From Bacteroidales bacterium (lineage in GTDB: Bacteria; Bacteroidota; Bacteroidia; Bacteroidales; JAADJA01), in assembly GCA_030596605.1 (NCBI GenBank), contig JAUVJI010000020.1, positions 1 to 42,090 on the forward strand: a stretch of DNA of 42,090 bases. The letters are read 5' to 3'. Shown in pieces: positions 20,637-38,709 of this stretch. Position 1 is the stretch's first letter. The number at the start of each line of letters is the position of its first letter. Below the pieces are notes generated by a model. That model ran no database searches and was not told the origin of the DNA. It was given only the letters and a program-made list of their open reading frames with translations. The position numbers and the translations under genes were made by a program.

Positions 20637-20725
20637 GTCTAAATTGTGGTATAGTGTTTGTATATTTTTAAAGGCATTAAAACGCACAAAAATAAATAAA
20701 AATATAACCTATGGAGGGCTTAAAA

Positions 20726-22117
20726 ATGAAAACTTACTTTTTAATACCGGTTCTGGCCATCTTTATCCTGGCAGGTTGTTCTTCAACAAAATCAACTACA
20801 GAGTATGATGATGTTTATTTTTCAAAAACTTCGGAAAAGAATAAGGATAACATAGACACTCAAACTTCCGATCCTGATTATTACACCGAAAGTGAGTATG
20901 TCATTGAAGACTATGAATCCGGTGAATATGTTGCATATGAGGAGGAGGAGCCTTATTATTCAACAAGTGAAACAGTTGAAAATCCTGATGGCACAACTTA
21001 TATAACCAATAATTACTATGAAGGCTATGGCCAAGGTGATTATTATGATTACTCATATGCGTCAAGGATAAACAGGTTTTATAGTCCGTACATGGGTTAT
21101 AATTATTACTCCCCTTATTATTACGGTTCCTATTATAATCCGTGGTACTGGGATTACTATTGGTACAGGCCATCCTTATATTACAGCTATGGCTGGGGAT
21201 GGGGAGGATGTTACTACGGATATCCTTACAATAGCTACTGGTATGGTTATAACAATGGCTATTGGGATGGCTATTATGCTTCCAATTATTATTATGATTA
21301 CGGCTATAATACTTACTATTATGATCACCGCCCGTCACGAGGTGGATCAAATAGTCCATACAACGGGAGAAATGGATATAACCCACAAAGTACTACCAAT
21401 ACAAATTCTACGAATTATTTGGAACGTACAACACCACAATTGGCTAATATTACTTCTCCATCCCGATCCTCAACAAATACAGGATCAGGTACACCAGGAA
21501 GGTCAAGCACCAATGTAGTTAATAATAAAGGAGATGTAAATACAAAGCAAAGATATACTTATAAAAAGCCTGCTGCTTCTTCGAATGAAACAAAAAATCG
21601 TTATCAGCCGGGTCAGAGTATTGGAGAAAATAAACAAGCAAGGCCAACACAAAAATATAATAAGCCTTCTTCAAATACAAAACAGGAGACTGTAAGGAAC
21701 AATACACGGCCTTCGAATACCTCAGAAAGGAACACTCAAAAATATACTAAACCGCAGTCAAATTATAACAGAAGTTATAATAAACCGACTCAGTATAATA
21801 CTGATAGAAATAATAATCAGCCATCAAGATCATCTTCAAATAATTATTCTCAACCTTCACGGACGAATACAAAAAATTACTCACAACCTTCAAGGTCAGC
21901 GAAGAGTTATTCAGCGCCATCCAGGTCAGGAAATACCAAGAGTAGTTATACCGCTCCATCCAGATCAGGAAGCAGCAGGTCATATTCCTCGCCATCCAGT
22001 TCGGGAAGCAGTAGGTCTTATTCATCACCCTCACGTTCAAGTAGTAGTGGCGGAACGAGGTCATCCGGTGGATCGAGATCATCCGGTGGATCGTCAAGAG
22101 GCGGTGGCAGAAGGTAA
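20726..22117 (+). CDS. Tyrosine-rich lipoprotein with Ser/Arg/Gly-rich tail
   Basis: The start at 20726 is chosen because GGAGGG (20712-20717) lies 8 bases upstream and it gives a clean lipoprotein signal, MKTYFLIPVLAIFILAGC (Cys18). The protein has 463 residues. Residues ~20-85 are acidic. Residues ~88-208 are dominated by Tyr, Trp and Gly (GYNYYSPYYYGSYYNPWYWD). Residues ~210-330 are Asn/Ser/Thr-rich. The tail has ~11-12-residue repeats like APSRSG..SYSSPS, ending SSRGGGRR. The composition suggests a disordered or adhesive surface-associated protein. Bacteroidota genomes often label such genes vitellogenin-like, which has no functional meaning. It precedes a FadL-like porin. Confidence 0.85.
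   Translation: MKTYFLIPVLAIFILAGCSSTKSTTEYDDVYFSKTSEKNKDNIDTQTSDPDYYTESEYVIEDYESGEYVAYEEEEPYYSTSETVENPDGTTYITNNYYEGYGQGDYYDYSYASRINRFYSPYMGYNYYSPYYYGSYYNPWYWDYYWYRPSLYYSYGWGWGGCYYGYPYNSYWYGYNNGYWDGYYASNYYYDYGYNTYYYDHRPSRGGSNSPYNGRNGYNPQSTTNTNSTNYLERTTPQLANITSPSRSSTNTGSGTPGRSSTNVVNNKGDVNTKQRYTYKKPAASSNETKNRYQPGQSIGENKQARPTQKYNKPSSNTKQETVRNNTRPSNTSERNTQKYTKPQSNYNRSYNKPTQYNTDRNNNQPSRSSSNNYSQPSRTNTKNYSQPSRSAKSYSAPSRSGNTKSSYTAPSRSGSSRSYSSPSSSGSSRSYSSPSRSSSSGGTRSSGGSRSSGGSSRGGGRR
21930..22096 (+). repeat. Short tandem repeats in the lipoprotein tail
   Basis: The DNA encoding the C-terminal Ser/Arg/Gly tail has 33-36-base imperfect repeats (units beginning CATCCAGATCAGGAAGCAGC and close variants). 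An 18-base direct repeat ending in GGTGGATCGAGA/GGTGGATCGTCA lies near 22063-22096. All are multiples of three, so length changes would stay in frame. Confidence 0.55.
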
Positions 22118-22188
22118 GCAATTATCGTTTTATAATATAAGCTGGATCATTCATTTAGAAATTAAAAACTATAGCAAAAATTATTGTT

Positions 22189-23679
22189 ATGAAAAGGATA
22201 ACTATAACCATACTGATACTAATCTTCACAAGTTATTTTGGAATTTGTCAGAATGAAGTGGATGCCCTTCGTTATTCCAGAACTACCTTTGGGGGTACTG
22301 CAAGATACATGGCAATGAGCGGAGCTTTTAGTGCACTTGGTGCAGATTTTTCAACATTAAGCTCAAACCCGGCTGGTATCGGGCTGTACAAAAAATTTGA
22401 GTTTTCGTTTACACCTGCGTTTTTTAATGGAAATACCTCATCAGAGTATAATGGAACTTCCAGTAAAGATTCGCGGAACAATTTTAATTTTAGCAATGTT
22501 GGTCTTATAATTACTACTCCTACAGCAAAGAATAACAATTCAGTACTCAAAAATTTTCAATTCGGTATGGGAATGAACAGGATCAATAATTATAACAATA
22601 GAATGATAATTGAAGGTTATAACAGTGAGAATTCATTGATCGATACCTATGTTGAGTATGCCGATGGAGTCCATTATGAAGATATTGAAGATGATTTTGA
22701 TGGAGATTATTCATATGATTTGAATCCGGCCTGGAATACTTATATGATTGATACGATCCCAGGGATTGATGATCAATATATTGGTATAACTTCAGGAGAG
22801 GTTTGGCAAAGAAAAGAAGTGAATTCATGGGGATCAACAAATGAGCTCCTCTTTGCACTTGGAGCGAATCTAAATGATAGAGTATATATTGGAGGGTCTA
22901 TTGGAATTCCTTTTATCCGTTATCGAGAAGAAGTACGATATTATGAAGAGGATATTTTCGATAGTAATGATGACTTTACGCAACTACGAATTTCTGATAA
23001 ATTGGAAACCAATGGAACCGGATTTAATATTAAGTTCGGAGTGATTGTCAGGGCAACAAACTGGCTGCGTTTAGCAGGTGCAATCCATTCCCCTACATGG
23101 TATAGTGGTGTAAAAGACTACTGGTCGACAGAATTTTATAATGAAGCATATGGCACTGATTATTCGATTTATTATTCCTTTGGGCCAAATAAGTATAAAT
23201 TGGAAACTCCCTGGAGGGCTATCGGTGGTGTATCTTTTATAATTAAGAAGGTTGCTTTAATCAGCATAGATTATGAGTATGTTGATTTTGCAAATGCAAA
23301 GTATAGAAATTATGATTTCTACGGTTATAATTTCTCCGAAGAAAACAGAACTATTTCCAATTTATATACAAAGACTCATAATGTCAGGGTAGGAGGGGAG
23401 TACAAGTTGGGTTATTTTGCTTTCCGTGGTGGATTTGGTTATTATGGAAGTCCTTTTGCAAAGGATGAAAATGGAATTAGAATTAATGATGGAGAAAAAT
23501 TGTATTACACCGGAGGATTGGGTTACAGGGATAAGCATTTTTTCGCCGATATAGCCTATGTAAGATCACAAACTGAAGAAGACTATTATTTATATGGTAC
23601 CGAAGATATTGTTGTAAACCCTGCCAGAAACCGGCACATCACAAATAATTTTCTTTTAACAATAGGATTTAGGTTTTGA
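22189..23679 (+). CDS. OmpP1/FadL-family outer-membrane transport protein
   Basis: 496 residues with a signal peptide MKRITITILILIFTSYFGICQ. The region GTARYMAMSGAFSALGADFSTLSSNPAG is the conserved plug/NPAG segment of FadL/OmpP1-like barrels. The rest alternates short beta-strands, ending in ...NFLLTIGFRF with a terminal Phe as expected for barrel assembly. FadL relatives import hydrophobic compounds; in Bacteroidota this group is often called hemin receptor without proof. It lies 71 bases after the tyrosine-rich lipoprotein and is probably co-transcribed with it. A strong terminator follows. Confidence 0.9.
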   Translation: MKRITITILILIFTSYFGICQNEVDALRYSRTTFGGTARYMAMSGAFSALGADFSTLSSNPAGIGLYKKFEFSFTPAFFNGNTSSEYNGTSSKDSRNNFNFSNVGLIITTPTAKNNNSVLKNFQFGMGMNRINNYNNRMIIEGYNSENSLIDTYVEYADGVHYEDIEDDFDGDYSYDLNPAWNTYMIDTIPGIDDQYIGITSGEVWQRKEVNSWGSTNELLFALGANLNDRVYIGGSIGIPFIRYREEVRYYEEDIFDSNDDFTQLRISDKLETNGTGFNIKFGVIVRATNWLRLAGAIHSPTWYSGVKDYWSTEFYNEAYGTDYSIYYSFGPNKYKLETPWRAIGGVSFIIKKVALISIDYEYVDFANAKYRNYDFYGYNFSEENRTISNLYTKTHNVRVGGEYKLGYFAFRGGFGYYGSPFAKDENGIRINDGEKLYYTGGLGYRDKHFFADIAYVRSQTEEDYYLYGTEDIVVNPARNRHITNNFLLTIGFRF

Positions 23680-23727: not shown

Positions 23728-26700
23728 CTAGGGAACTTTTGTTCCCTCGCCATCATTCGGAACCCAAATATCATTCTTGTCTTTATTATCTACCTCTGCA
23801 TCCATATTATGGTCAGCAGGTAAATAACCCGTTGTTCCAGCGCTATTTGACCAAACAGTTTTATCGAGGTTATCAATAAATCCATCAGGCTTACTATCGC
23901 CGCCATACATACCATATATAACACTTCCAAGACTTTTCTGTCCATTCAGATATGCCTGCCCTGCAGGAGTTGTGAAATCATAACTGTACTGATTTATTCC
24001 AGAGGGCAATAAAGGATTAGCAGATAAAACTCCAAGATGATTTCTCTGCCAAATCACAACAAACAGGTTATACTGGTAAATCCCGTTTGTTTTTACTGGA
24101 CTTATACCATCTAAGCCAACTACTGATCCGTCATTTAAAATGAAAGCTGCTTGCTGGCTTGCCATAGTTGCTCCCGTTGCCGAAGAAGCTATTGTAGCAT
24201 CCCTGAATTCTACCATGACCCAATCTGTAATGCTTGTATTTGGTATAGAACTTACTGATTCAGAGCCGGTGTAATACCATATTGCAGAAGGATCGGAATT
24301 GTATGGCTGATATAATGGGATCAATCCCTGTGAGTTGAGAATTGTATTCATCGCCGTCCCATTATATGGACCCTCAAGGAATACCTTAAGATTTACATCC
24401 ACATCTCCTTCAATCCTAACTTCATGATCTTCTACTTCACCATCAGGCGCAACACCGGTGTATGATAATCCGGAAACTGTGCTGAAACGGAATCTGGCAA
24501 AAGTATTGCCCACAACAGCTGTGCCCGGGACTGATATAAACATCCAGTTACTACCTGTATTTATCCATTGATCATTAATTGCATGTTCATTGGCTTCGGT
24601 CCAATTGCCATTGCCATTGTAATCGATCCAGCAATTTAAATATCCCGGAACAGAGGCAACCACATCAAATGCTCCTCCTCCTCCTGAATATAATGCAAAT
24701 ACGACTGTAACCCCATCTTCATCGTCATTGCCATCATTATCATCTCCCAAAGCCAATGGATCTGGTTGTCCGTCAAGCTCTGCATCAATACTATTTCCAA
24801 GGAAAACTGTATAATCGATGATATGAGCAGCTCCGTTACTTCCCAATAAAGTAGGATAGGTTGGATCAGGAACATCGCCCAAATCCAATTCCGGAACGGA
24901 TTCAGAGGTAATAACAAATGCCATATCGCTAAATCTGTTATTTGTCCACGAAATCGTATTCCATACATTAGGAACTGGTACAACTTTATCGGTAGCACCA
25001 CATAGGATCGGAGTTGTACTTCTTCCGGCCTCTTGCCACCTCCAGTAAGCCGGATCAAGAGGATCGGTACAAAATGCTGTAATATCCAACCAATAGTGAT
25101 TTCCCTGTATCTGTGGGAATGGTTCTTCAAGAATATAATCGTATAGATAAATAGTACAGCCCTCGATATTAATGAGTCCGCTATTGTATTCGGTTAATGA
25201 ACTAAAAGGAATATCAATACCCCAGATTTCAGGATCTTGTGGTAAACAACCTGTGGGATCCAAAGCATGAATACTCAAATGGAAGTATTCAATTCCGGCT
25301 CCACGTCTCTCTACATTAAATACATCTAATTCATAATTACCCCACCAGTGTATATCAGTAACCCAGCCTCCATCACAAATCCAGTCATCAGCTAAAACAA
25401 TTTGCTCATAATAAAGTATGTCGTAATCATGCGCATGTAATCCAGGCAAACTAACATCAGGATATTGAGCCCATTTATTTGGTATTTCTTCAATATCTAC
25501 TTCATAATCTTCTACTTCTCCATTTGGTGCTAAACCTGTAAAAATTAATCCAGTAGCTGTACTAAATCTAAACCTCGAATAAGTTGTTCCAACGGTTGCT
25601 ACCAAGGGAACATTAAACGTAAATGTATTTGTACCAGCAGTTAAAGCAAGATCGGTTGCTATCTGTTCACCTGGATCTCCCCAGAATCCGTTTGCATTAA
25701 AATCTATCCATGCATTCAAATAACCATCAACAGAAACATAAACAGAAACATCTGAGGGCTGACCCTGAACAAGTGGAGGATTGAATGTTACACCATCTTC
25801 GTCATCATTACCATCATTGTCATCTCCCAAAGCATTTGGATCAGGTTGCCCATTTGTTTCAGGATCGACCGAACCTCCCATAAATGTTGTGCCGTCAATA
25901 ATATGTCTGGCACCATCATTAACCAGAAGAGTTGGATAGGGTGGATCATCTGCATCACCATAATCAAGTTCATCAAATTCCTGAGAGGTGATAATAAACG
26001 CCATATCAGAATACTTATGAGGTGGATTGGGTAACCATTGAATCGTAGACCAGGGTAGTACGCCCGGCTCCAATTTATCGGCAGCACCACATAAAATGGG
26101 AAAATAACTTCTCATAGATTCCTGCCATCTCCACATGGGCGGATTATTTGGATCAATAGAGAATACGGTTATATCAATCCAATACCTTGTTCCAAGTTCC
26201 TGATCAAACGGTTGTGGCAATATAAACTCATACAAATATATTGAACAACCTTCATTGTTAATTAACCCTGTGTTCAACTCAACCAGTGTAGAGAATGGAA
26301 TATCAAACCCCAAAATCTCAGGATCTAATGGCAGGCATAATCCGGTTGGATCATCAGCGTGAATACTTATATGGAAATGACCAATCCCGGCTCCCCTCAT
26401 TTCCTGGTTTAATGCATCCAGTTCATAATTGCCCCACCAATGGATGTCAGTAACCAGACCTCCATTACATAACCAATCATCAGCAATAACTATTCGTTCA
26501 ATACCGCCAGCTGCATTTACATAATCATGTGCATGTAAACCAGGTAGTGTGATATCAGGATACTGTGCCCATTTGTAATCTCCAAATTCAACAATGTCAA
26601 CTTCATAGTCCTCTACCTCACCATCAGGTGCGGGGCCATCAAATGATAATCCAGGTTGTGTGCTAAATCTAAACCGTGCATATGTAATAAGGCCTGCCAT

Positions 26701-29700
26701 AGCTGAGGTTGGTACCATAAAGTTAAGTGAATTATCCCCCGTTACAATAGGAATATCTACAAAGACATGTTCACCGGGATCAGCCCAGCTACCGTTACCA
26801 TCAAAGTCGATCCAACCGCTGAAAAACCCATTGTTAACAGAGGCATTTACTGTTATTTTACAAGGATTTCCAACTGCTAAGGGCCAATCAAATGTAACAC
26901 CGTCCTCATCGTCGTTGCCATCGTTATCATCTCCCAAAGCTTGTGGATCAGGTTGTCCGTCAGGCTCCGGATCGACACTTGCTCCGAGGAAAGTTATTCC
27001 ATCAATGACATGGCTTGCTCCATTGCTACCAACAAGAGTTGGATAGGGTGGATCATCAGCATCACCAAAGTCGAGTTCATCAGCAATTTCAACAGAAGTA
27101 ATAACAAATGCCATATCGCTATAACGGTATGGTTGTATTGAAGTCCAAATTATACTTTGCCATGGGGTTGTTGATGTCATAGTTGCAGACGGACAAAGCA
27201 CAGGAACAGTAGAACGGTCTGATTCCTGCCAACGCCATATGGCCGGATCAGTGGGATCATTAGAATATGCGCAGATATCGAGCCAATAGGTATTTCCTTC
27301 TATTTGGTCAAATGGGAAGTCCAGAAAATACTCATATTTGTAAATGATTCCACCTTCACTGTTAAATAGACCTGTATTTGTTTCATTAGTAGTTGAAAAT
27401 GGAACATCAATACCCCATATTTCAGGATCCAGAGGCAGGCAACCTGTCGGATCATTATTATGAATACTCAAGTGGAAGTAATTAATTCCACCTCCTAATG
27501 CTTCATAATTTCCCCACCAGTGAATGTCAGTAACCAATCCACCATTGCAAAGCCAATCATCAGCTAATATGATATAATCATAAATGTCTGGAGGTAATAT
27601 GTAATCATGACAATGTAATCCGGGTAATTCTTCACAGGGTTCTTGTATCCACTTGATATCAGGATCTTCAATAATTTCAACTTCATAGTCTTCAACCTCA
27701 CCATCAGTGGCAAGACCGGTATACGTTAATCCCTGTACAGTACTGAATCTAAACCGTGCATAAGTTGTTCCAAGGTTAGCATTTACAGGAACGAGATAGT
27801 TTAAACAAACAGTATAACCGAAGTGAATATATTCATCGGTAAATATTTGTTCTCCCGGATCAGCCCAGTCACCATCAGCATTAAAATCCATCCATCCTTG
27901 TAAATAACCAGGGACACTTGTAGTTACCGTAATCTGTGCAGGACTGCCCTGAATTATCTGATTAAATACAATACCATCTTCATCAGGCAAATTGTTGTTA
28001 TCATCGCCGAGAGCATTCGGATCGGGCTGTCCATCGGGCTCAGCATCGATCTGACCACCCAGGAAAGTGACTCCATCAATATTATGCCTTGCTCCATTGC
28101 TTGCTAACAATGTTGGATATGTCGGATCAGAAGCATCACCGAAATCAATTTCTGCCAATGGATTTTGTATTTTATCAAAAAGTACATCTCCGTTTATATC
28201 ATAAAGAGATGAAGTAAAGGCAATGTAAGCATGAGTATTGTCAACTATTAATCCGAGATATTCACCCATCCATATTCCGGAAGGTGTGTTGGGTGAAGGA
28301 GCACTCACATCATTTATTTGTATATTAGGTGTGAAACTATTACCTCCATCAGTACTCATGGCAATGTAAACATCCCAATTAAGATCAAGCAGGTCATTTC
28401 TGCGATCGTACCATGTTACGTCAATTGTACCGTTGGGTTTAATGTCTATCCATGGCATTACCTGATCATTGGGGGTAGCATCATCATTTACTTGTAAAGG
28501 AGCTGACCAATTCTGTCCACCATTAGTGGATCTAATAAAGAAGATATCTCCTTCATCCCCACCGGCGGCACTGGCTTCAGCATAAACAATGTAAACTTCC
28601 TGTGGGTTAGTTGGTGAAACATCAATAACTGCCGCGCCTTTTGCCAGGACATCACTACCACCATTTAGTCTTAATGGAGGTAAATTAACTGTCCTCACCA
28701 AAATATCTTGTGTTAACCATGTTGCACCTCCATCTGGTGAAAAATTCATATAAATTGTACCTACACCACCTGTCAGAACATTATAATCCATCCAGCAAAC
28801 GTAAATGGTTCCATCCGGTGCTACAGCCGGAACAGGCATGTTACCCATATTGTGAATATTTTCGTTGAGTATTATCTGGGAGCTCCAGGTAAGTCCTCCA
28901 TCCGTAGATGCTGAGAAATAGATATCACTTTCTAGTAATGGATTATTCCATCCACGGTCTTTAATCTCTACTATATAAAGATTGTTATAATATGGACTTG
29001 TTGGATTAATATCGCAGGTCATCTGACACCTGTCGTTAAACCTGTAGTTAGGATCGGGCGAACCTGTTGGTTTACCATCATAAGCGATAGTTACAGGTGC
29101 AGCCCAGGTAACTCCACCATCTGTTGACTTATGAACATACAGACCACTTTCCGGACCATTAGTCCAATCATAATCAGTAGAAATATGTGCAACATACAGG
29201 TTACCATTCCCATCAGCCGTTGCGGTCGGATCAAACATATCCTGATAAGGAATACCCAATGGATTCATTGGATAAGGGAGCTGCAATGGAGTCCATATTG
29301 CTCCACCATCTGTGCTATAACTAACACCAAGGCCCGGGCCACCGGGATATGGATTGTCGTTATAAGCAGCAAGCAAAACAGCCGGAATGCCGGGTTGAGT
29401 TCCGGGAACAAGGGCCATTGAAATCTCATTTTGTACAAAGGAGCCTGTTGGATCAGGATCAATAGGTATATCTCCTGTCTGGCCGCCAATATATACCCGG
29501 TAATCTTCCACTTCTCCGTCGGGTGCAAGTCCATCAAAAGGTATTCCCATTGCTGAAGAAAACCTGAACCTTGCATATGTGTTTCCATTGGTTGCACCTG
29601 CAGGAACCTGGAAGGTAAGGCTGTTCAATCCGGGATTTAATACCTGGTCCAGGAAAATTTGTTCATTTAACTCAGCCCAGGAGCCGTTTTGATTAAAATC

Positions 29701-32553
29701 CATCCATGCATTCAATACTCCAGTAACGGAAGCAAAAACATCAACCGTAGCCGGTTGACCGGGAATTAATGCAGATGTAAACGTAACTCCGTCCTCATCA
29801 TCGTTTGCCGGAGGATAAAATATATCATTATCATCACCTAGTGCCTGTGCATCGGGTTGACCATCAGGCTCGCCATCAATTGAATTTCCGAGATATATTT
29901 GCGGGATTATTACGTGATGAGCACCATTATTTATGCCCAGAGTCGGATAAGGACTGTCAGGTGCATCACCCCAGTCTATTTCTTCCTCTTGTTCAAGGAC
30001 AAGCAATAAATAATCTTCTGTTTCTCCATAATCAAAGAAACCTTCGCCGTTCCAATCCATACCAACAGGAGAATCTGTTATGGAGAATCTTACCCATACA
30101 TAACCCGGATTAGGCCCAATTGGTATTGTTGAGCCGGCAGCCATTAAAGCTGACAATGGGCCATCAAATGGATTGGGAATCACAAAATCTACCAATACAT
30201 GTTCGTTAACAGCATATCCCGGGCAATCTATAGAACCTGCCCATTGGCCATCCTGGTTCCAGTCAACTAATAAATTAACATAAGCTTGATCTCCGGTTGG
30301 TATTTGATTATGGATGTCAATATCAATATTTGCACCCCATGGTGCTTGCTGGCAGGTATAACCAAGCGGCATACCCATGAAACCGGTACACGGAACAACT
30401 GTTTCAGAGCCAACCGCTCCGGTAATCGTAAATGATTCAGGTATCATTAAGCCGGCATCTCCGTTGCCAAAACATTCATCCTGATTGTATTGGTTTGGAT
30501 TAAAGGCAGGACATACTCCTGCATTTCCATCCGGTTCTAAATCAGCTTGTGAACCAAACCAGGCACTTACATCGCTATGTTGTATCCAACCTGAAACAGG
30601 AACATTCATACAAGTAGGGAACATACCTAACATTCCGGTAGAAGGATATGCTAAAGCATCTTCCGGTGCATCGCCAAATTCAAATAAATCTCCTCCGTTG
30701 TCAGGTTGTGAGCATACATGATTGATAATGCCATCAGGAATTGTAAAGTTCCATCCTTCAACATCAATTGATATCCATTCAGGATTGTATTCAAGTATTT
30801 CATAAAAATATTGGTCAATGATAATGGGTCCGTTAATCGGGCCGTAAAATATTGGCGTTGACCGGACTATATAAAGGTCTTCCAATCCCGGATCACCGAA
30901 AACATCTTCAGGTAACGGTGGCCTACCGGGAACGCCCTGTTCTGACCAGGGTCCGGTTGACCAGTTAAAAACAATATTTGCATACGAATCCAGGCCTGGG
31001 TCTAAGCGGTCAATTGTAAATGAAACATTTATAGCCTTGGTACGCTCATATTCAAATGGATGATCGTAAAACCATATATTCCACCAATCGAAGTTAGGAT
31101 AATAATACCATTCACCATCATTATACCCCGAACCACCTCCTGCTACAAACACTCCGCCCGGGTCAAGCTCAACCCAAAAATCATCCTGGCGAAGCAGGTA
31201 TGGGTTAAGGTAAAGTTCACAGTCACCACCTGCAGATATTAACTCCATGGGTGTGGTGCTCGAAGGATTAAAGTCATTACCAATAGGTGAGTGTTCCCAA
31301 GGATAAGCTATTGAATTGGAGTATTGCAGTAAGCTGATTCCTCCAAGATCCCAAACCTCAGTATTATATGGAGGTGAAGTTTTAGTAAAAATAAGTCTTG
31401 GATAAACATATAACGGAGAATAATCGAATACACCTCCATTTGCATCATTTTTTATTATGCCCATATTCCCTGAAGGCTGAGGATATGTAGAGAGTGCCAA
31501 TTCAACATCCCACAATTCAGGATCCATTCCACCATTATACGTAACGGTTATAGGTGTGGTACTTACAAGGCTAAGTTCAACAATCTCTGTTTGAACCATA
31601 TCGGGTGAGGGATACGGTTCAGGAAGATTTGCCGGAGAGATTCTTTCAATAATGGCATCAGGATTAGGAAACTCTGTTGAACCGTGTGATTCTCCCTGTA
31701 AAAAAATGGCACCGTCAAAAGGATCAGACCCTGGGCCAAAAAAGTCGGAAGGGATAGGAGCAATTTCACCACCCGGTCCTCCCGGATGTACAGAAGATGC
31801 GGGACTTTCAGGGACAATCCAGAAGTCAGGGCCCGGATCAATAAGGTCGTTACCAACGGATGGAATCTCAAACCCTGTTGTGGCAGTTGTGGTTCCAGCT
31901 AATCCTTCAAGTATAGAACCCGGACAGCCTTCAAATTCAATCTGGTATGTAATATCGAAAAAACTATCAACTGCAAAATCACCGCTTGGTAATTGTGTTA
32001 AAGTTGTTTCTCCCGGGCTTGGCAACCCAAAATCACTACCTGCTATTATATGAAACGTACAAAAATCAGGATCCCCAAAAAGTTCTCCTTGTAAACGATA
32101 ATATTCTGCCGGAAATGCCTGAACCGGATCACCCGGATTGCGAGGGCCAGTGTGAATTTCTGAGAAAATTTCGACATACAATGTTCTGTTGAACCCTTCT
32201 AATTCTCCGGTGCCAATAACATCAAACACCATTGAACCTTTAAAACAATGAACATGTCCACCCAAAGACCCTCCAGGAATTTCACATATACTCGGTGGAA
32301 TTGGTAACGAACAAGGGCATGAACCATCACAGATAAAATCGGAATAGATACCGTGCAATTCGATGGTTGTTCCCGGAGGTAATCCTTCAATGATCATAAA
32401 AGGATCAACCGATTGGTACTGACAGCCTATCGGCGGAAGTGTAGCTGTGCCTGTTCCGTTATCAGGAATTACACAACTTTGTGCTTGAATGAAAGAAGAA
32501 GAAATCAATAAAACGAAAAGTGTTAAAAACGAAAAGCGGACATGTGGTTTCAT
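23728..32553 (-). CDS. Giant secreted GEVED/Asp-box propeller surface protein
   Basis: 2941 residues, uninterrupted. It has a signal peptide (~1-25, ...SSSFIQAQ) and an uncharacterised beta-rich region (~26-620). Six GEVED domains lie at ~623-848, 856-1018, 1467-1625, 1826-1983, 2192-2350 and 2554-2710, each with GD(A/V).DP.YPTL...GEVEDYEV and an inner DxNxNGxW-type turn. Between domains 2 and 3, six Asp-box motifs (STDGGxTW type, ~1084-1403) imply a six-bladed sialidase-like propeller. Between domains 3-4, 4-5 and 5-6 is a ~200-residue unit (ADDWxC..G.VTDIHWWGNYE...FHxSIH...YW.DI..W.RWQE..RS). The tail (~2720-2941) has an LEGPY domain, then two dockerin-like DxxxDxxxDNxD stretches ending EGTKVP. 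There is no T9SS tail. Adhesion or matrix binding is inferred. Confidence 0.9.
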   Translation of the reverse strand: MKPHVRFSFLTLFVLLISSSFIQAQSCVIPDNGTGTATLPPIGCQYQSVDPFMIIEGLPPGTTIELHGIYSDFICDGSCPCSLPIPPSICEIPGGSLGGHVHCFKGSMVFDVIGTGELEGFNRTLYVEIFSEIHTGPRNPGDPVQAFPAEYYRLQGELFGDPDFCTFHIIAGSDFGLPSPGETTLTQLPSGDFAVDSFFDITYQIEFEGCPGSILEGLAGTTTATTGFEIPSVGNDLIDPGPDFWIVPESPASSVHPGGPGGEIAPIPSDFFGPGSDPFDGAIFLQGESHGSTEFPNPDAIIERISPANLPEPYPSPDMVQTEIVELSLVSTTPITVTYNGGMDPELWDVELALSTYPQPSGNMGIIKNDANGGVFDYSPLYVYPRLIFTKTSPPYNTEVWDLGGISLLQYSNSIAYPWEHSPIGNDFNPSSTTPMELISAGGDCELYLNPYLLRQDDFWVELDPGGVFVAGGGSGYNDGEWYYYPNFDWWNIWFYDHPFEYERTKAINVSFTIDRLDPGLDSYANIVFNWSTGPWSEQGVPGRPPLPEDVFGDPGLEDLYIVRSTPIFYGPINGPIIIDQYFYEILEYNPEWISIDVEGWNFTIPDGIINHVCSQPDNGGDLFEFGDAPEDALAYPSTGMLGMFPTCMNVPVSGWIQHSDVSAWFGSQADLEPDGNAGVCPAFNPNQYNQDECFGNGDAGLMIPESFTITGAVGSETVVPCTGFMGMPLGYTCQQAPWGANIDIDIHNQIPTGDQAYVNLLVDWNQDGQWAGSIDCPGYAVNEHVLVDFVIPNPFDGPLSALMAAGSTIPIGPNPGYVWVRFSITDSPVGMDWNGEGFFDYGETEDYLLLVLEQEEEIDWGDAPDSPYPTLGINNGAHHVIIPQIYLGNSIDGEPDGQPDAQALGDDNDIFYPPANDDEDGVTFTSALIPGQPATVDVFASVTGVLNAWMDFNQNGSWAELNEQIFLDQVLNPGLNSLTFQVPAGATNGNTYARFRFSSAMGIPFDGLAPDGEVEDYRVYIGGQTGDIPIDPDPTGSFVQNEISMALVPGTQPGIPAVLLAAYNDNPYPGGPGLGVSYSTDGGAIWTPLQLPYPMNPLGIPYQDMFDPTATADGNGNLYVAHISTDYDWTNGPESGLYVHKSTDGGVTWAAPVTIAYDGKPTGSPDPNYRFNDRCQMTCDINPTSPYYNNLYIVEIKDRGWNNPLLESDIYFSASTDGGLTWSSQIILNENIHNMGNMPVPAVAPDGTIYVCWMDYNVLTGGVGTIYMNFSPDGGATWLTQDILVRTVNLPPLRLNGGSDVLAKGAAVIDVSPTNPQEVYIVYAEASAAGGDEGDIFFIRSTNGGQNWSAPLQVNDDATPNDQVMPWIDIKPNGTIDVTWYDRRNDLLDLNWDVYIAMSTDGGNSFTPNIQINDVSAPSPNTPSGIWMGEYLGLIVDNTHAYIAFTSSLYDINGDVLFDKIQNPLAEIDFGDASDPTYPTLLASNGARHNIDGVTFLGGQIDAEPDGQPDPNALGDDNNNLPDEDGIVFNQIIQGSPAQITVTTSVPGYLQGWMDFNADGDWADPGEQIFTDEYIHFGYTVCLNYLVPVNANLGTTYARFRFSTVQGLTYTGLATDGEVEDYEVEIIEDPDIKWIQEPCEELPGLHCHDYILPPDIYDYIILADDWLCNGGLVTDIHWWGNYEALGGGINYFHLSIHNNDPTGCLPLDPEIWGIDVPFSTTNETNTGLFNSEGGIIYKYEYFLDFPFDQIEGNTYWLDICAYSNDPTDPAIWRWQESDRSTVPVLCPSATMTSTTPWQSIIWTSIQPYRYSDMAFVITSVEIADELDFGDADDPPYPTLVGSNGASHVIDGITFLGASVDPEPDGQPDPQALGDDNDGNDDEDGVTFDWPLAVGNPCKITVNASVNNGFFSGWIDFDGNGSWADPGEHVFVDIPIVTGDNSLNFMVPTSAMAGLITYARFRFSTQPGLSFDGPAPDGEVEDYEVDIVEFGDYKWAQYPDITLPGLHAHDYVNAAGGIERIVIADDWLCNGGLVTDIHWWGNYELDALNQEMRGAGIGHFHISIHADDPTGLCLPLDPEILGFDIPFSTLVELNTGLINNEGCSIYLYEFILPQPFDQELGTRYWIDITVFSIDPNNPPMWRWQESMRSYFPILCGAADKLEPGVLPWSTIQWLPNPPHKYSDMAFIITSQEFDELDYGDADDPPYPTLLVNDGARHIIDGTTFMGGSVDPETNGQPDPNALGDDNDGNDDEDGVTFNPPLVQGQPSDVSVYVSVDGYLNAWIDFNANGFWGDPGEQIATDLALTAGTNTFTFNVPLVATVGTTYSRFRFSTATGLIFTGLAPNGEVEDYEVDIEEIPNKWAQYPDVSLPGLHAHDYDILYYEQIVLADDWICDGGWVTDIHWWGNYELDVFNVERRGAGIEYFHLSIHALDPTGCLPQDPEIWGIDIPFSSLTEYNSGLINIEGCTIYLYDYILEEPFPQIQGNHYWLDITAFCTDPLDPAYWRWQEAGRSTTPILCGATDKVVPVPNVWNTISWTNNRFSDMAFVITSESVPELDLGDVPDPTYPTLLGSNGAAHIIDYTVFLGNSIDAELDGQPDPLALGDDNDGNDDEDGVTVVFALYSGGGGAFDVVASVPGYLNCWIDYNGNGNWTEANEHAINDQWINTGSNWMFISVPGTAVVGNTFARFRFSTVSGLSYTGVAPDGEVEDHEVRIEGDVDVNLKVFLEGPYNGTAMNTILNSQGLIPLYQPYNSDPSAIWYYTGSESVSSIPNTSITDWVMVEFRDATIASSATGATMASQQAAFILNDGSVVGLDGISPVKTNGIYQYNLFVVIWQRNHLGVLSANPLLPSGINQYSYDFTTPAGQAYLNGQKSLGSVIYGMYGGDSKPDGFIDNLDKTVWSNSAGTTGYLPADHNMDAEVDNKDKNDIWVPNDGEGTKVP
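24419..27709. repeat. Three tandem ~1.09-kb units inside the giant gene
   Basis: The GEVEDYEV-encoding sites fall at about 24430, 25510, 26610 and 27690, a spacing of 1080-1100 bases. Each period encodes one GEVED domain plus one DDW/TDIHWWGNY domain. The proteins are very similar, while the DNA differs at many silent positions (for example in the GDDNDGNDDEDGVTF stretch), which points to an old duplication kept by selection. Confidence 0.8.
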
Positions 32554-36555: not shown

Positions 36556-38709
36556 TCACAATTTGATCTTGATCATTTTTTTTGTCATTATTTCATTCCC
36601 CACCTTAACGCTGCATAGATAAATTCCTGTTGACATATCGGATAAATTCAGTACAAATTCATTTTGGCCAGATCGCTCATCATTAAATTGCCAGCTTTTA
36701 ATGCAACTACCGGCAGTATTGTAAATAGATATTTCAATTGATATGGGAGATGATAAATTCAAACGCAAAATAGCCTGATGATTTACAGGATTTGGAAAAA
36801 TATCAAAATTGCTGAATTTGTTTCCGGCTGACTCCTCTTTTTTATCTGACACCAGTATTGAATTATTCAGCAAAACAAGACCGTAATCATTCAATGAACA
36901 AACCAGTAAATCAGAATAATAGTCCATTTCATAAATTTCGAAGTTTACTTTTTCGGAATTTATTAATTGAATATCGTTGATATCGGAAATATCGAAGGTG
37001 AAGATTTCATTCCATTCCCTGTCTACTATAATCATCTTATCATCAACGATCAGTGGTTTAACCTTTATGTCCGAATTGGAGTTAGGTTTTAATGTTTCAA
37101 TTAATGCTGGAACGACAGGATTGGATACATCGAATAGATGAACTCCTTCATTCCTGTCAGAAACAACCAAAACTTCTTTGTGTATCAAAATTTTGACTGC
37201 ATTACCCTGTGTGTCAAATGAAGAAACAAATTGAGGAGTAGTAATATTTTCAATATCTATAACTTCTATTCCATCTTCACCCATTGATACATATGCCAGG
37301 TTTTCTGATACCTGGATATCAGTAATAATTGATTGGGTTTGGTATTTTGAAATGAGTGCTGGATTACTGAATTCCATTACATTGTAAATACTTAATGTAT
37401 CATAAGTTCCGACAAAAATGTGATTATCGGTTTGAAATACTGCAATTGACTGGAACGATAAATATGAATAATCAATTGTATAATTTATAACAGGGTTTTC
37501 GGGATTTGAAATATCAATCATAAATAATTCGGCCCAGGGATAATTGTTGCTTAAACATAATCTGTTATTATAAATAGATACACCTTCCGGAGATCCGTAG
37601 CCGAAATTGAAAGTATTTTCAAGTGTAGGATCCAGTACATTGGAAATATCTATTAAATCCAATCCAACAAAGCCATCTGCCAGAAATAAATAACTATTAT
37701 GAATATCAAATCCCTTTGCCTTTTTTATTGTTTGTAAAGAGCTGAAATAATAAGGATTATTATGGTCGCTTATGTCAATAATTTGAAGGCCAGAATAACC
37801 ATTGGCAATATAAGCAATGTCTCCGGTAGCCATAACCTGCTCACTTACACCAGGTGTATCATAATAGCCAAGTTCAATTAATTCGTTAGGATTTGTAATG
37901 TCTATAACTTTTATCCCCAAATAAGACTGGGTGATCAAGGCTTTATCACCATCAATATAAATTTTATAAATTGGTTTTTTTGTTGTTATAGTATCAGTTA
38001 TCACAGGGTTAAAGGGATCTGTGATATTTACGCCCCACATATTTCTACCATTTACAACATACGCATTTGAGCTGGCCACTGCAATGTCTCCTCCTGTACT
38101 TGAATTAGAGCCTGGTAATTCAAAGTTGGTAATAACAATTGGATTTTGAAGGTCCGAAAAATCTATTACCTGTAGTTTGGCGGGATAACCTGAAATTACA
38201 CCATAAATCAAATTATCCTTTAGGCAAATTCCATTCATATCTCCAGGAATATAACCCAGGGATTGCGGGGATTGTATATTGGAAATATCCAATATCCTGA
38301 ACTCAAAGTAATTGGCAATAAATGCCAGATTGCCTGAAATTTCAATATCGGCAGACATTCCATAATCCCACACTGACAGATAAACAGGATTCTCGGGAAC
38401 GGAGACATCAATTACATGAATGTAATTTTGACCAAGAACGAAAGCCAAAGTATCGGAAACAACAATTCTTCCCCGAACCCCGGGAACCAGATCAACGATA
38501 TTAAGACTTGCAACAAGCGTAGGATGTCCGGGATCGGAAACATCAATAATTTCAAAAAATCCGTAATAATTTACGGTATATACCAAGTCACCTTTTTTAT
38601 CAAGTGATACCATTCTATCCCACGAATTGTAATCCTCGATCTTAAAATATATACCGTAAGTTAAAGGAATTTGCAAAAACAGGATCAGGATCAAAATCAA
38701 ATTTTTCAT
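36556..38709 (-). CDS. LVIVD-repeat protein with T9SS C-terminal sorting domain
   Basis: 717 residues. It has a signal peptide (MKNLILILILFLQIPLTYG) followed by about 13 LVIVD-type repeats of ~43 residues (typical core IAYIANGYSGLQIIDISDHNNP), which should form a beta-propeller. The last ~80 residues are a type A T9SS sorting domain: FDIFPNPVNHQAILRLNLS, then ISIYNTAGSCIKSW, and ending VKVGNEIMTKKMIKIKL. So it is exported through the Por (type IX) machinery to the surface or medium. It is a single gene, divergent from lpxK. The ligand is unknown. Confidence 0.92.
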   Translation of the reverse strand: MKNLILILILFLQIPLTYGIYFKIEDYNSWDRMVSLDKKGDLVYTVNYYGFFEIIDVSDPGHPTLVASLNIVDLVPGVRGRIVVSDTLAFVLGQNYIHVIDVSVPENPVYLSVWDYGMSADIEISGNLAFIANYFEFRILDISNIQSPQSLGYIPGDMNGICLKDNLIYGVISGYPAKLQVIDFSDLQNPIVITNFELPGSNSSTGGDIAVASSNAYVVNGRNMWGVNITDPFNPVITDTITTKKPIYKIYIDGDKALITQSYLGIKVIDITNPNELIELGYYDTPGVSEQVMATGDIAYIANGYSGLQIIDISDHNNPYYFSSLQTIKKAKGFDIHNSYLFLADGFVGLDLIDISNVLDPTLENTFNFGYGSPEGVSIYNNRLCLSNNYPWAELFMIDISNPENPVINYTIDYSYLSFQSIAVFQTDNHIFVGTYDTLSIYNVMEFSNPALISKYQTQSIITDIQVSENLAYVSMGEDGIEVIDIENITTPQFVSSFDTQGNAVKILIHKEVLVVSDRNEGVHLFDVSNPVVPALIETLKPNSNSDIKVKPLIVDDKMIIVDREWNEIFTFDISDINDIQLINSEKVNFEIYEMDYYSDLLVCSLNDYGLVLLNNSILVSDKKEESAGNKFSNFDIFPNPVNHQAILRLNLSSPISIEISIYNTAGSCIKSWQFNDERSGQNEFVLNLSDMSTGIYLCSVKVGNEIMTKKMIKIKL

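Follow-up and report, generated by a model that had tools for sequence, protein, structure and literature searches.

A three-copy DUF7901 domain alternating with GEVED domains in a giant, putatively secreted protein of a Bacteroidales bacterium

Background

Fibrillar adhesins are one of the closest described settings for the protein analyzed here. In CshA, GEVED is reported to follow the fibronectin-binding NR2 domain invariably, as its downstream partner (PMC10952558). The CshA/CshB fibrillar adhesins resemble our locus in that a giant secreted protein carries another domain paired with GEVED (PMC10952558).

The window, that is, the whole 42,090-nucleotide stretch of Bacteroidales DNA that was analyzed, contains a giant ORF in which GEVED domains alternate with a repeated unit. 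We describe this ORF, the family to which its repeated unit belongs, and the roles that the unit might play.

Results and discussion

Architecture of the giant protein

A signal-like start of the giant protein is followed in order by about 620 residues, two GEVED domains, a BNR region, three GEVED-DUF7901 pairs, a last GEVED and a C-terminal module (Table 1). Pfam recognizes GEVED in six stretches (E 3.6e-74). The BNR/sialidase-like region contains six Asp-box-like strings, identified by eye, and is probably a beta-propeller.

Table 1. Features of the giant ORF and a neighboring match, in window coordinates
Feature	Position	Strand	Remarks
Giant ORF, 2941 aa	23728..32553	-	one ORF carrying all three DUF7901 copies
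N-terminal 620 aa	30694..32553	-	nothing matched in Pfam or NCBIfam at E of 1 or less
Divergent first GEVED domain	30004..30282	-	33.6 bits
GEVED ahead of BNR region	29494..29715	-	60.5 bits
BNR/sialidase-like region, about 450 aa	28084..29433	-	BNR_2, E 5.2e-8
GEVED immediately preceding DUF7901 copy 1	27679..27906	-	51.5 bits
DUF7901 copy 1, residues ~1633-1819	27097..27657	-	type I (tree); 99.6 bits, E 5.5e-28
GEVED immediately preceding DUF7901 copy 2	26599..26823	-	52.7 bits
DUF7901 copy 2, residues ~1994-2189	25987..26574	-	type I (tree); 117.5 bits, E 1.6e-33
GEVED immediately preceding DUF7901 copy 3	25498..25722	-	57 bits
DUF7901 copy 3, residues ~2360-2549	24907..25476	-	type I (tree); 99.6 bits, E 4.9e-28
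Last GEVED, downstream of DUF7901 copy 3	24418..24642	-	55.1 bits
C-terminal module, 210 aa	23731..24360	-	two dockerin-like loops (by eye), end GEGTKVP
Por_Secre_tail match in neighbor of giant ORF	36571-36801		

Judged by eye, the N-terminus resembles a signal peptide, and the protein is presumably secreted. Por_Secre_tail (PF18962), which served as the criterion for T9SS cargo, was not found in the giant protein. The source genome has at least 150 matches to this domain (150 of 309 candidates were scored), and a neighbor of the giant ORF carries one. The C-terminal module of the giant protein matches nothing in Pfam or NCBIfam. Within the source genome it has 36 matches, a number that counts the module itself and a few partial ones. 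Among 15 copies examined, 13 terminate the script-picked ORF, and two (L180 and L186) have further sequence after them. The module may be a sorting or anchoring tag.

Identity of the repeated unit

The original prediction described a separate domain of about 200 residues, without a known function, that recurs three times in one giant protein and alternates with GEVED. This description was borne out: profile placement agrees with the predicted limits to within a few residues, a GEVED domain immediately precedes each of the three copies, and the unit matches the Pfam entry DUF7901 (PF25470; three stretches, E 1.4e-87), to which no function is attached. The idea of a new family was therefore rejected. 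All three copies exceed the curated cut-off of PF25470 (24 bits), at 117.5, 99.6 and 99.6 bits, and they cover positions 2-205, 2-205 and 1-205 of the 205-position profile.

Each copy is about 190 residues long. Pairwise identity is 59-65%, with a mean column identity of 75%, and this likeness is far beyond chance. The predicted landmark strings are present in the predicted order in every copy, small variations aside: copy 2 reads FHISIH for FHLSIH, copy 1 reads DVPFS for DIPFS, and only copy 1 has an exact GNTYW (GTRYW in copy 2 and GNHYW in copy 3). Seven residues that follow WGNY in the other copies are missing from copy 1.

A literature search with the name DUF7901 found no paper. Searching solved structures by sequence gave no credible relative (three matches at E 0.23-0.45 and one at E 0.71 were read as chance), and NCBIfam has no match for the domain, its matches falling outside it. 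DUF7901 is an already catalogued family that is known by name only, with no function assigned in databases. The check proposed with the original prediction, for a characterized family with a known ligand, thus led to a Pfam match with neither ligand nor function; since DUF7901 also lacks a credible structural relative and a paper under its name, no such characterized family was found.

Distribution and domain partners

In a whole-genome draw from the phylum of the window, one of 296 genomes has DUF7901, namely the window's own. Its order has 10 of 295 (own included), nine above the curated cut-off and a tenth, G435, that looks unrelated, and its genus has 8 of 17 (own included), with one to five copies each and types I and II (see below) mixed. 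For the phylum of a genome titled Phycisphaerae, the count is 9 of 294, that genome included. The source assembly, which is 88% complete, holds no DUF7901 besides the three copies, also when searched at E up to 10 with a profile from alignment A3 (98 of 144 non-redundant scan domains plus the three window copies). Plasmid and phage records gave no match, and viral contigs gave no relative, none of their four pattern stretches encoding the domain.

When one genome per species was scanned by pattern, at least 119 stretches were found; because the scan required an [x]TDIHxWG string, this is a biased sample and not a census. Among the matches listed, 96 of 119 stretches encode DUF7901 (profile from A2). 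By record title, these 96 comprise, among the matches listed, 53 from Planctomycetota, eight unplaced, seven from Verrucomicrobiota, six from Bacteroidota, four each from Zixiibacteriota and Kiritimatiellota, two each from Eiseniibacteriota, Methanobacteriota, Cloacimonadota, Armatimonadota, Chloroflexota and Hydrogenedentota, and one each from Omnitrophota and Sumerlaeota. At least 13 named phyla with DUF7901 occur in the sample, two contigs titled as archaea included. Single odd placements, among them these two contigs, may be contamination, since most listed titles say MAG.

The original prediction pointed to similar strings in other secreted proteins, and DUF7901 does occur in such proteins, some with dockerin-like tails. 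Among the matches listed are 108 ORFs with DUF7901, of which 79 have a stop inside the locus; regular expressions count 25 of these 79 as ending PEP-CTERM-like and at least 16 as dockerin-like. Further dockerin-like tails were seen by eye in L049, L053, L086 and L094. In five short proteins scanned, Pfam PEP-CTERM scored above its cut-off once and weakly four times; tag aside, DUF7901 is the sole recognized domain of the short PEP-CTERM-like proteins. Eight longer ORFs that were scanned contain GEVED in five cases, LamG and HYR in L041, FlgD_ig in L043, IPTL-CTERM in L152 and a subtilase in L061.

In the window and related genomes (14 fetched regions), GEVED lies within about 30 residues upstream of all 32 DUF7901 domains that have at least 90 upstream residues; three more had too little. 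Loci L078, L117 and L096 share their contigs with L163, L202 and L204 and were therefore dropped from the GEVED counts, and the longer regions from the order draw represent part of the matches, with G388:C9, G388:C30, G562:C166, G503:C317 and G435 left out. In the wider scan, among the matches listed, 35 DUF7901 domains have an upstream GEVED, 82 have none and 43 have insufficient upstream sequence, as counted with a GEVED profile that has the window as its sole source and will overlook distant members. The GEVED-DUF7901 pairing is not general across the family.

Related giant proteins and copy history

Among genomes of the genus, G465, G588 and G590 have the propeller-like region of the window's protein, at 77, 85 and 72% identity along some 450 residues, as well as its C-terminal module. 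In G589, G594, G597 and G558, the module is present and a full propeller region was not found; three of these end at contig ends. The series of DUF7901 types is I-I-I in the window, I-I in G465, I-II-I-II-II in G588, II-I-I-II in G589 and I in G590; the partial proteins have I-I-II (G597), I-II (G594) and II (G558).

Type I copies are near-identical within G588, within G465 and within G562, and are thus probably recent duplicates. The three window copies sit apart in the type I tree, where many forks are weak. Recent tandem triplication was rejected as their sole history, given that copy 2 pairs with the copy of G590 (99/97). Copy 1 is nearest to copies of G588 and L117, and copy 3 to copies of L117 and G465, both joins being weak. 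Within the genus, the best matches of the window copies have 66-78% identity.

Clades and conserved residues

A FastTree tree of 188 domains, with local SH-like support, contains three main clades: type I (30 rows, support 98), type II (87 rows, 97) and type III (58 rows, 95). Several small deep groups fall outside them. Type I comprises the window copies, other Bacteroidota, five Planctomycetota loci, one Cloacimonadota locus, one unplaced bin and a deep Chloroflexota row.

Conservation was assessed in the domain numbering of copy 2, with 29, 87 and 47 rows for types I, II and III; the 47 type III rows are the inner part of the 58-row clade. Twenty positions reach at least 80% conservation in each of the three clades: Q5, P7, G13, A32, D33, D34, C37, T43, G49, F68, P83, F124, Q126, Y132, W133, W151, A165, D191, A193 and F194. 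Positions reaching this level in type I only include L14, H15, N50, Y51, E52, G62, C81, E100, N107, Y114, R150, Q152, E153, R156 and P160. These clade-specific residues cluster in two aromatic motifs, the WWGNY and WRWQE strings that the original prediction called near-invariant. Across the family they are not: position 50 in types II and III is mostly S in place of N (94 and 100%), and the second motif there is G-W-K-T (G 100 and 100%, K 97 and 94%, T 86 and 96%). WWGNY and WRWQE are therefore real, but largely as type I signatures, with only G49 and W151 among the 20 positions common to the three clades.

Covariation and fold

Mean-field covariation was computed from 188 sequences for 207 columns. 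The strongest pairs are H73-D135, G164-Y189, I31-M192 and S71-D135. Five column shuffles reach 1.27-1.60, and 12 pairs, H73-D135 and S71-D135 among them, exceed this, with the caveat that shuffling keeps the ancestry signal. Taken together with F68-V138 and A74-Y132, the two pairs at D135 suggest that a strand at 68-74 runs antiparallel to one at 132-138. Pairs between the N- and C-termini, and those of a second ladder that would join 72-76 to 85-89, are weaker and do not exceed the shuffled maximum. The main pairs persist without type I (158 rows), in part somewhat weaker. The link of N50 with R150, Q152 and E153 enters the top 40 pairs only with type I included, and so may reflect ancestry alone. 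The covariation fits an all-beta module, which DUF7901 probably is, without identifying a fold.

Possible roles of DUF7901

By analogy with the GEVED-paired NR2 domain of CshA (PMC10952558), DUF7901 could be a binding domain. The giant protein resembles fibrillar adhesins in carrying GEVED domains within a long multidomain chain, secreted as judged by eye from its N-terminus. We regard it as an even prospect that DUF7901 serves as a beta-rich binding module, exposed on a secreted protein and paired with GEVED in the manner of CshA adhesins. The protein would be exported and would stay at or near the cell surface, the GEVED-DUF7901 cassettes lying between the signal peptide and propeller-like region on one side and the recurring C-terminal module on the other. 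The DUF7901 array, spaced by GEVED, would then bind an extracellular partner (a polysaccharide, a protein or another cell) with avidity, and pockets of types I, II and III might give differing specificities. A ligand-binding face at the tryptophan motifs is plausible, although the conserved aromatics can also be explained by core packing.

A role as a structural spacer, in which DUF7901 would be a stable beta module that adds length to the protein but does not itself bind a partner, is rather unlikely, yet it would account for the regular alternation with GEVED and for a copy number that varies from one to five among genomes of one genus, as in stalk repeats. It would also suit the propeller-like regions of G465, G588 and G590, which are closer to the window's (72-85%) than the DUF7901 copies of the genus generally are (66-78% for the best matches of the three window copies). 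However, DUF7901 also stands alone, tag aside, in short proteins that have no stalk, its three clades retain distinct aromatic and charged motifs across phyla beyond what a spacer should need, and at least window copy 2 has a nearer relative in another species than in the adjacent copies. We consider it improbable that DUF7901 serves extracellular enzymes or polymer matrices as an accessory domain, holding substrate or exopolysaccharide instead of mediating adhesion. A Phycisphaerae protein, L061, joins a subtilase to six DUF7901 domains, dockerin-like tails recur in Planctomycetota, and PEP-CTERM proteins are linked with exopolysaccharide. Nevertheless, among 194 ORFs the subtilase region of L061 matched only L061 itself, and in 10 further Planctomycetota-type proteins Pfam found DUF7901 and no recognized partner.

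That DUF7901 is an enzyme with WWGNY and WRWQE as its catalytic face, the other option raised for these motifs, is very improbable. Type I does keep H46, E52, E100, R150, E153 and R156, H46 is fairly common in every type (83% in I, 74% in II and 94% in III), and D33 and D34 are family-wide. However, the remaining five of these type I residues are not common to types II and III, and tandem arrays of three to six copies per protein would be unusual for an enzyme. Little points to catalysis, because W, Y, F, G, P, Q, A and C, plus the Asp-Asp pair, make up most of the positions common to the three clades.

If the binding-module reading is extended to the family, DUF7901 might be an unrecognized adhesive or lectin-like family with three specificity clades, whose shuffled GEVED-DUF7901 cassettes make related Bacteroidota differ in the number and mix of binding types that their related giant surface proteins carry; we put this forward as a tentative possibility. 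An "unknown" that keeps recurring among the secreted proteins of uncultured bacteria has in any case become a testable set, with three clades, a minimal unit and clade-separating residues. Should DUF7901 bind, it would help to explain how uncultured groups attach to polymers or partners.

Comparison with known systems

The proprotein convertase P domain (PF01483) and DUF7901 are both modules of secreted proteins. Tried as a generic secreted beta-sandwich, the P domain differs from DUF7901 by profile: a profile-profile comparison with nine P-domain rows gave a probability of 0.1% at E 0.64, and homology was rejected.

Within PF25470, the window copies are full-length and share the common landmark order KWxQxPD, ADD[WF]xC, TDIHxWG, YWL, W and D[LM]AF. 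They differ in scoring 100-117 bits, whereas the best type II copies from the order and genus reach 171-175. Their clade has RWQE instead of GWKT, carries C81 and C163, both at 93% in type I, and begins with GLHAHD-like letters nearby.

With respect to CshA-like adhesins, CshA_NR2 has no Pfam match in the giant protein or among 101 DUF7901 domains. A CshA_NR2 search of 198 genomes of the phylum likewise gave no match, and its controls were equally silent, so that this search does not show absence. The giant protein has, by eye, no LPxTG end. The order of the paired domains also differs: in CshA, GEVED follows NR2 (PMC10952558), whereas here GEVED precedes DUF7901.

DUF7901 in other proteins

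At 532-6174 of L061, a locus from the pattern scan of one genome per species, a single Phycisphaerae protein combines a subtilase (Peptidase_S8, E 1.5e-37), six DUF7901 domains, of types III-I-III-unplaced-II-unplaced in order, and a dockerin-like tail. A DUF7901 match in a genome from the whole-genome draws (G601:C22:35244-35879) lies within an 11548-aa open frame, an exceptional protein length. The loci L099 and L073 contain DUF7901 too; the titles of their contigs name ANME-2c Methanosarcinales and Methanolinea, and by Pfam L099 carries GEVED as well. These domains may be archaeal, or else result from binning contamination.

Regions and neighbors of the giant gene

Features in and beside the giant gene
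Feature	Window position	Strand	Remark
BNR/sialidase-like region	28084-29433		
C-terminal module	23731-24360		210 residues; dockerin-like loops
Two adjoining ORFs	20711-23679	plus	

The BNR/sialidase-like region is 72-85% identical in three relatives within the genus. One adjoining ORF encodes a FadL-like outer membrane protein (PF03349 score just under the cut-off); the other (468 aa) has no Pfam match.

The C-terminal module, which has no match in Pfam or NCBIfam, recurs within its own genome, with 35 matches besides this one. It closes many large proteins there, and its terminal letters are mostly QVPE- or KVP-like. The module appears to be a second C-terminal tag alongside Por_Secre_tail (PF18962), the C-terminal domain of T9SS cargo.
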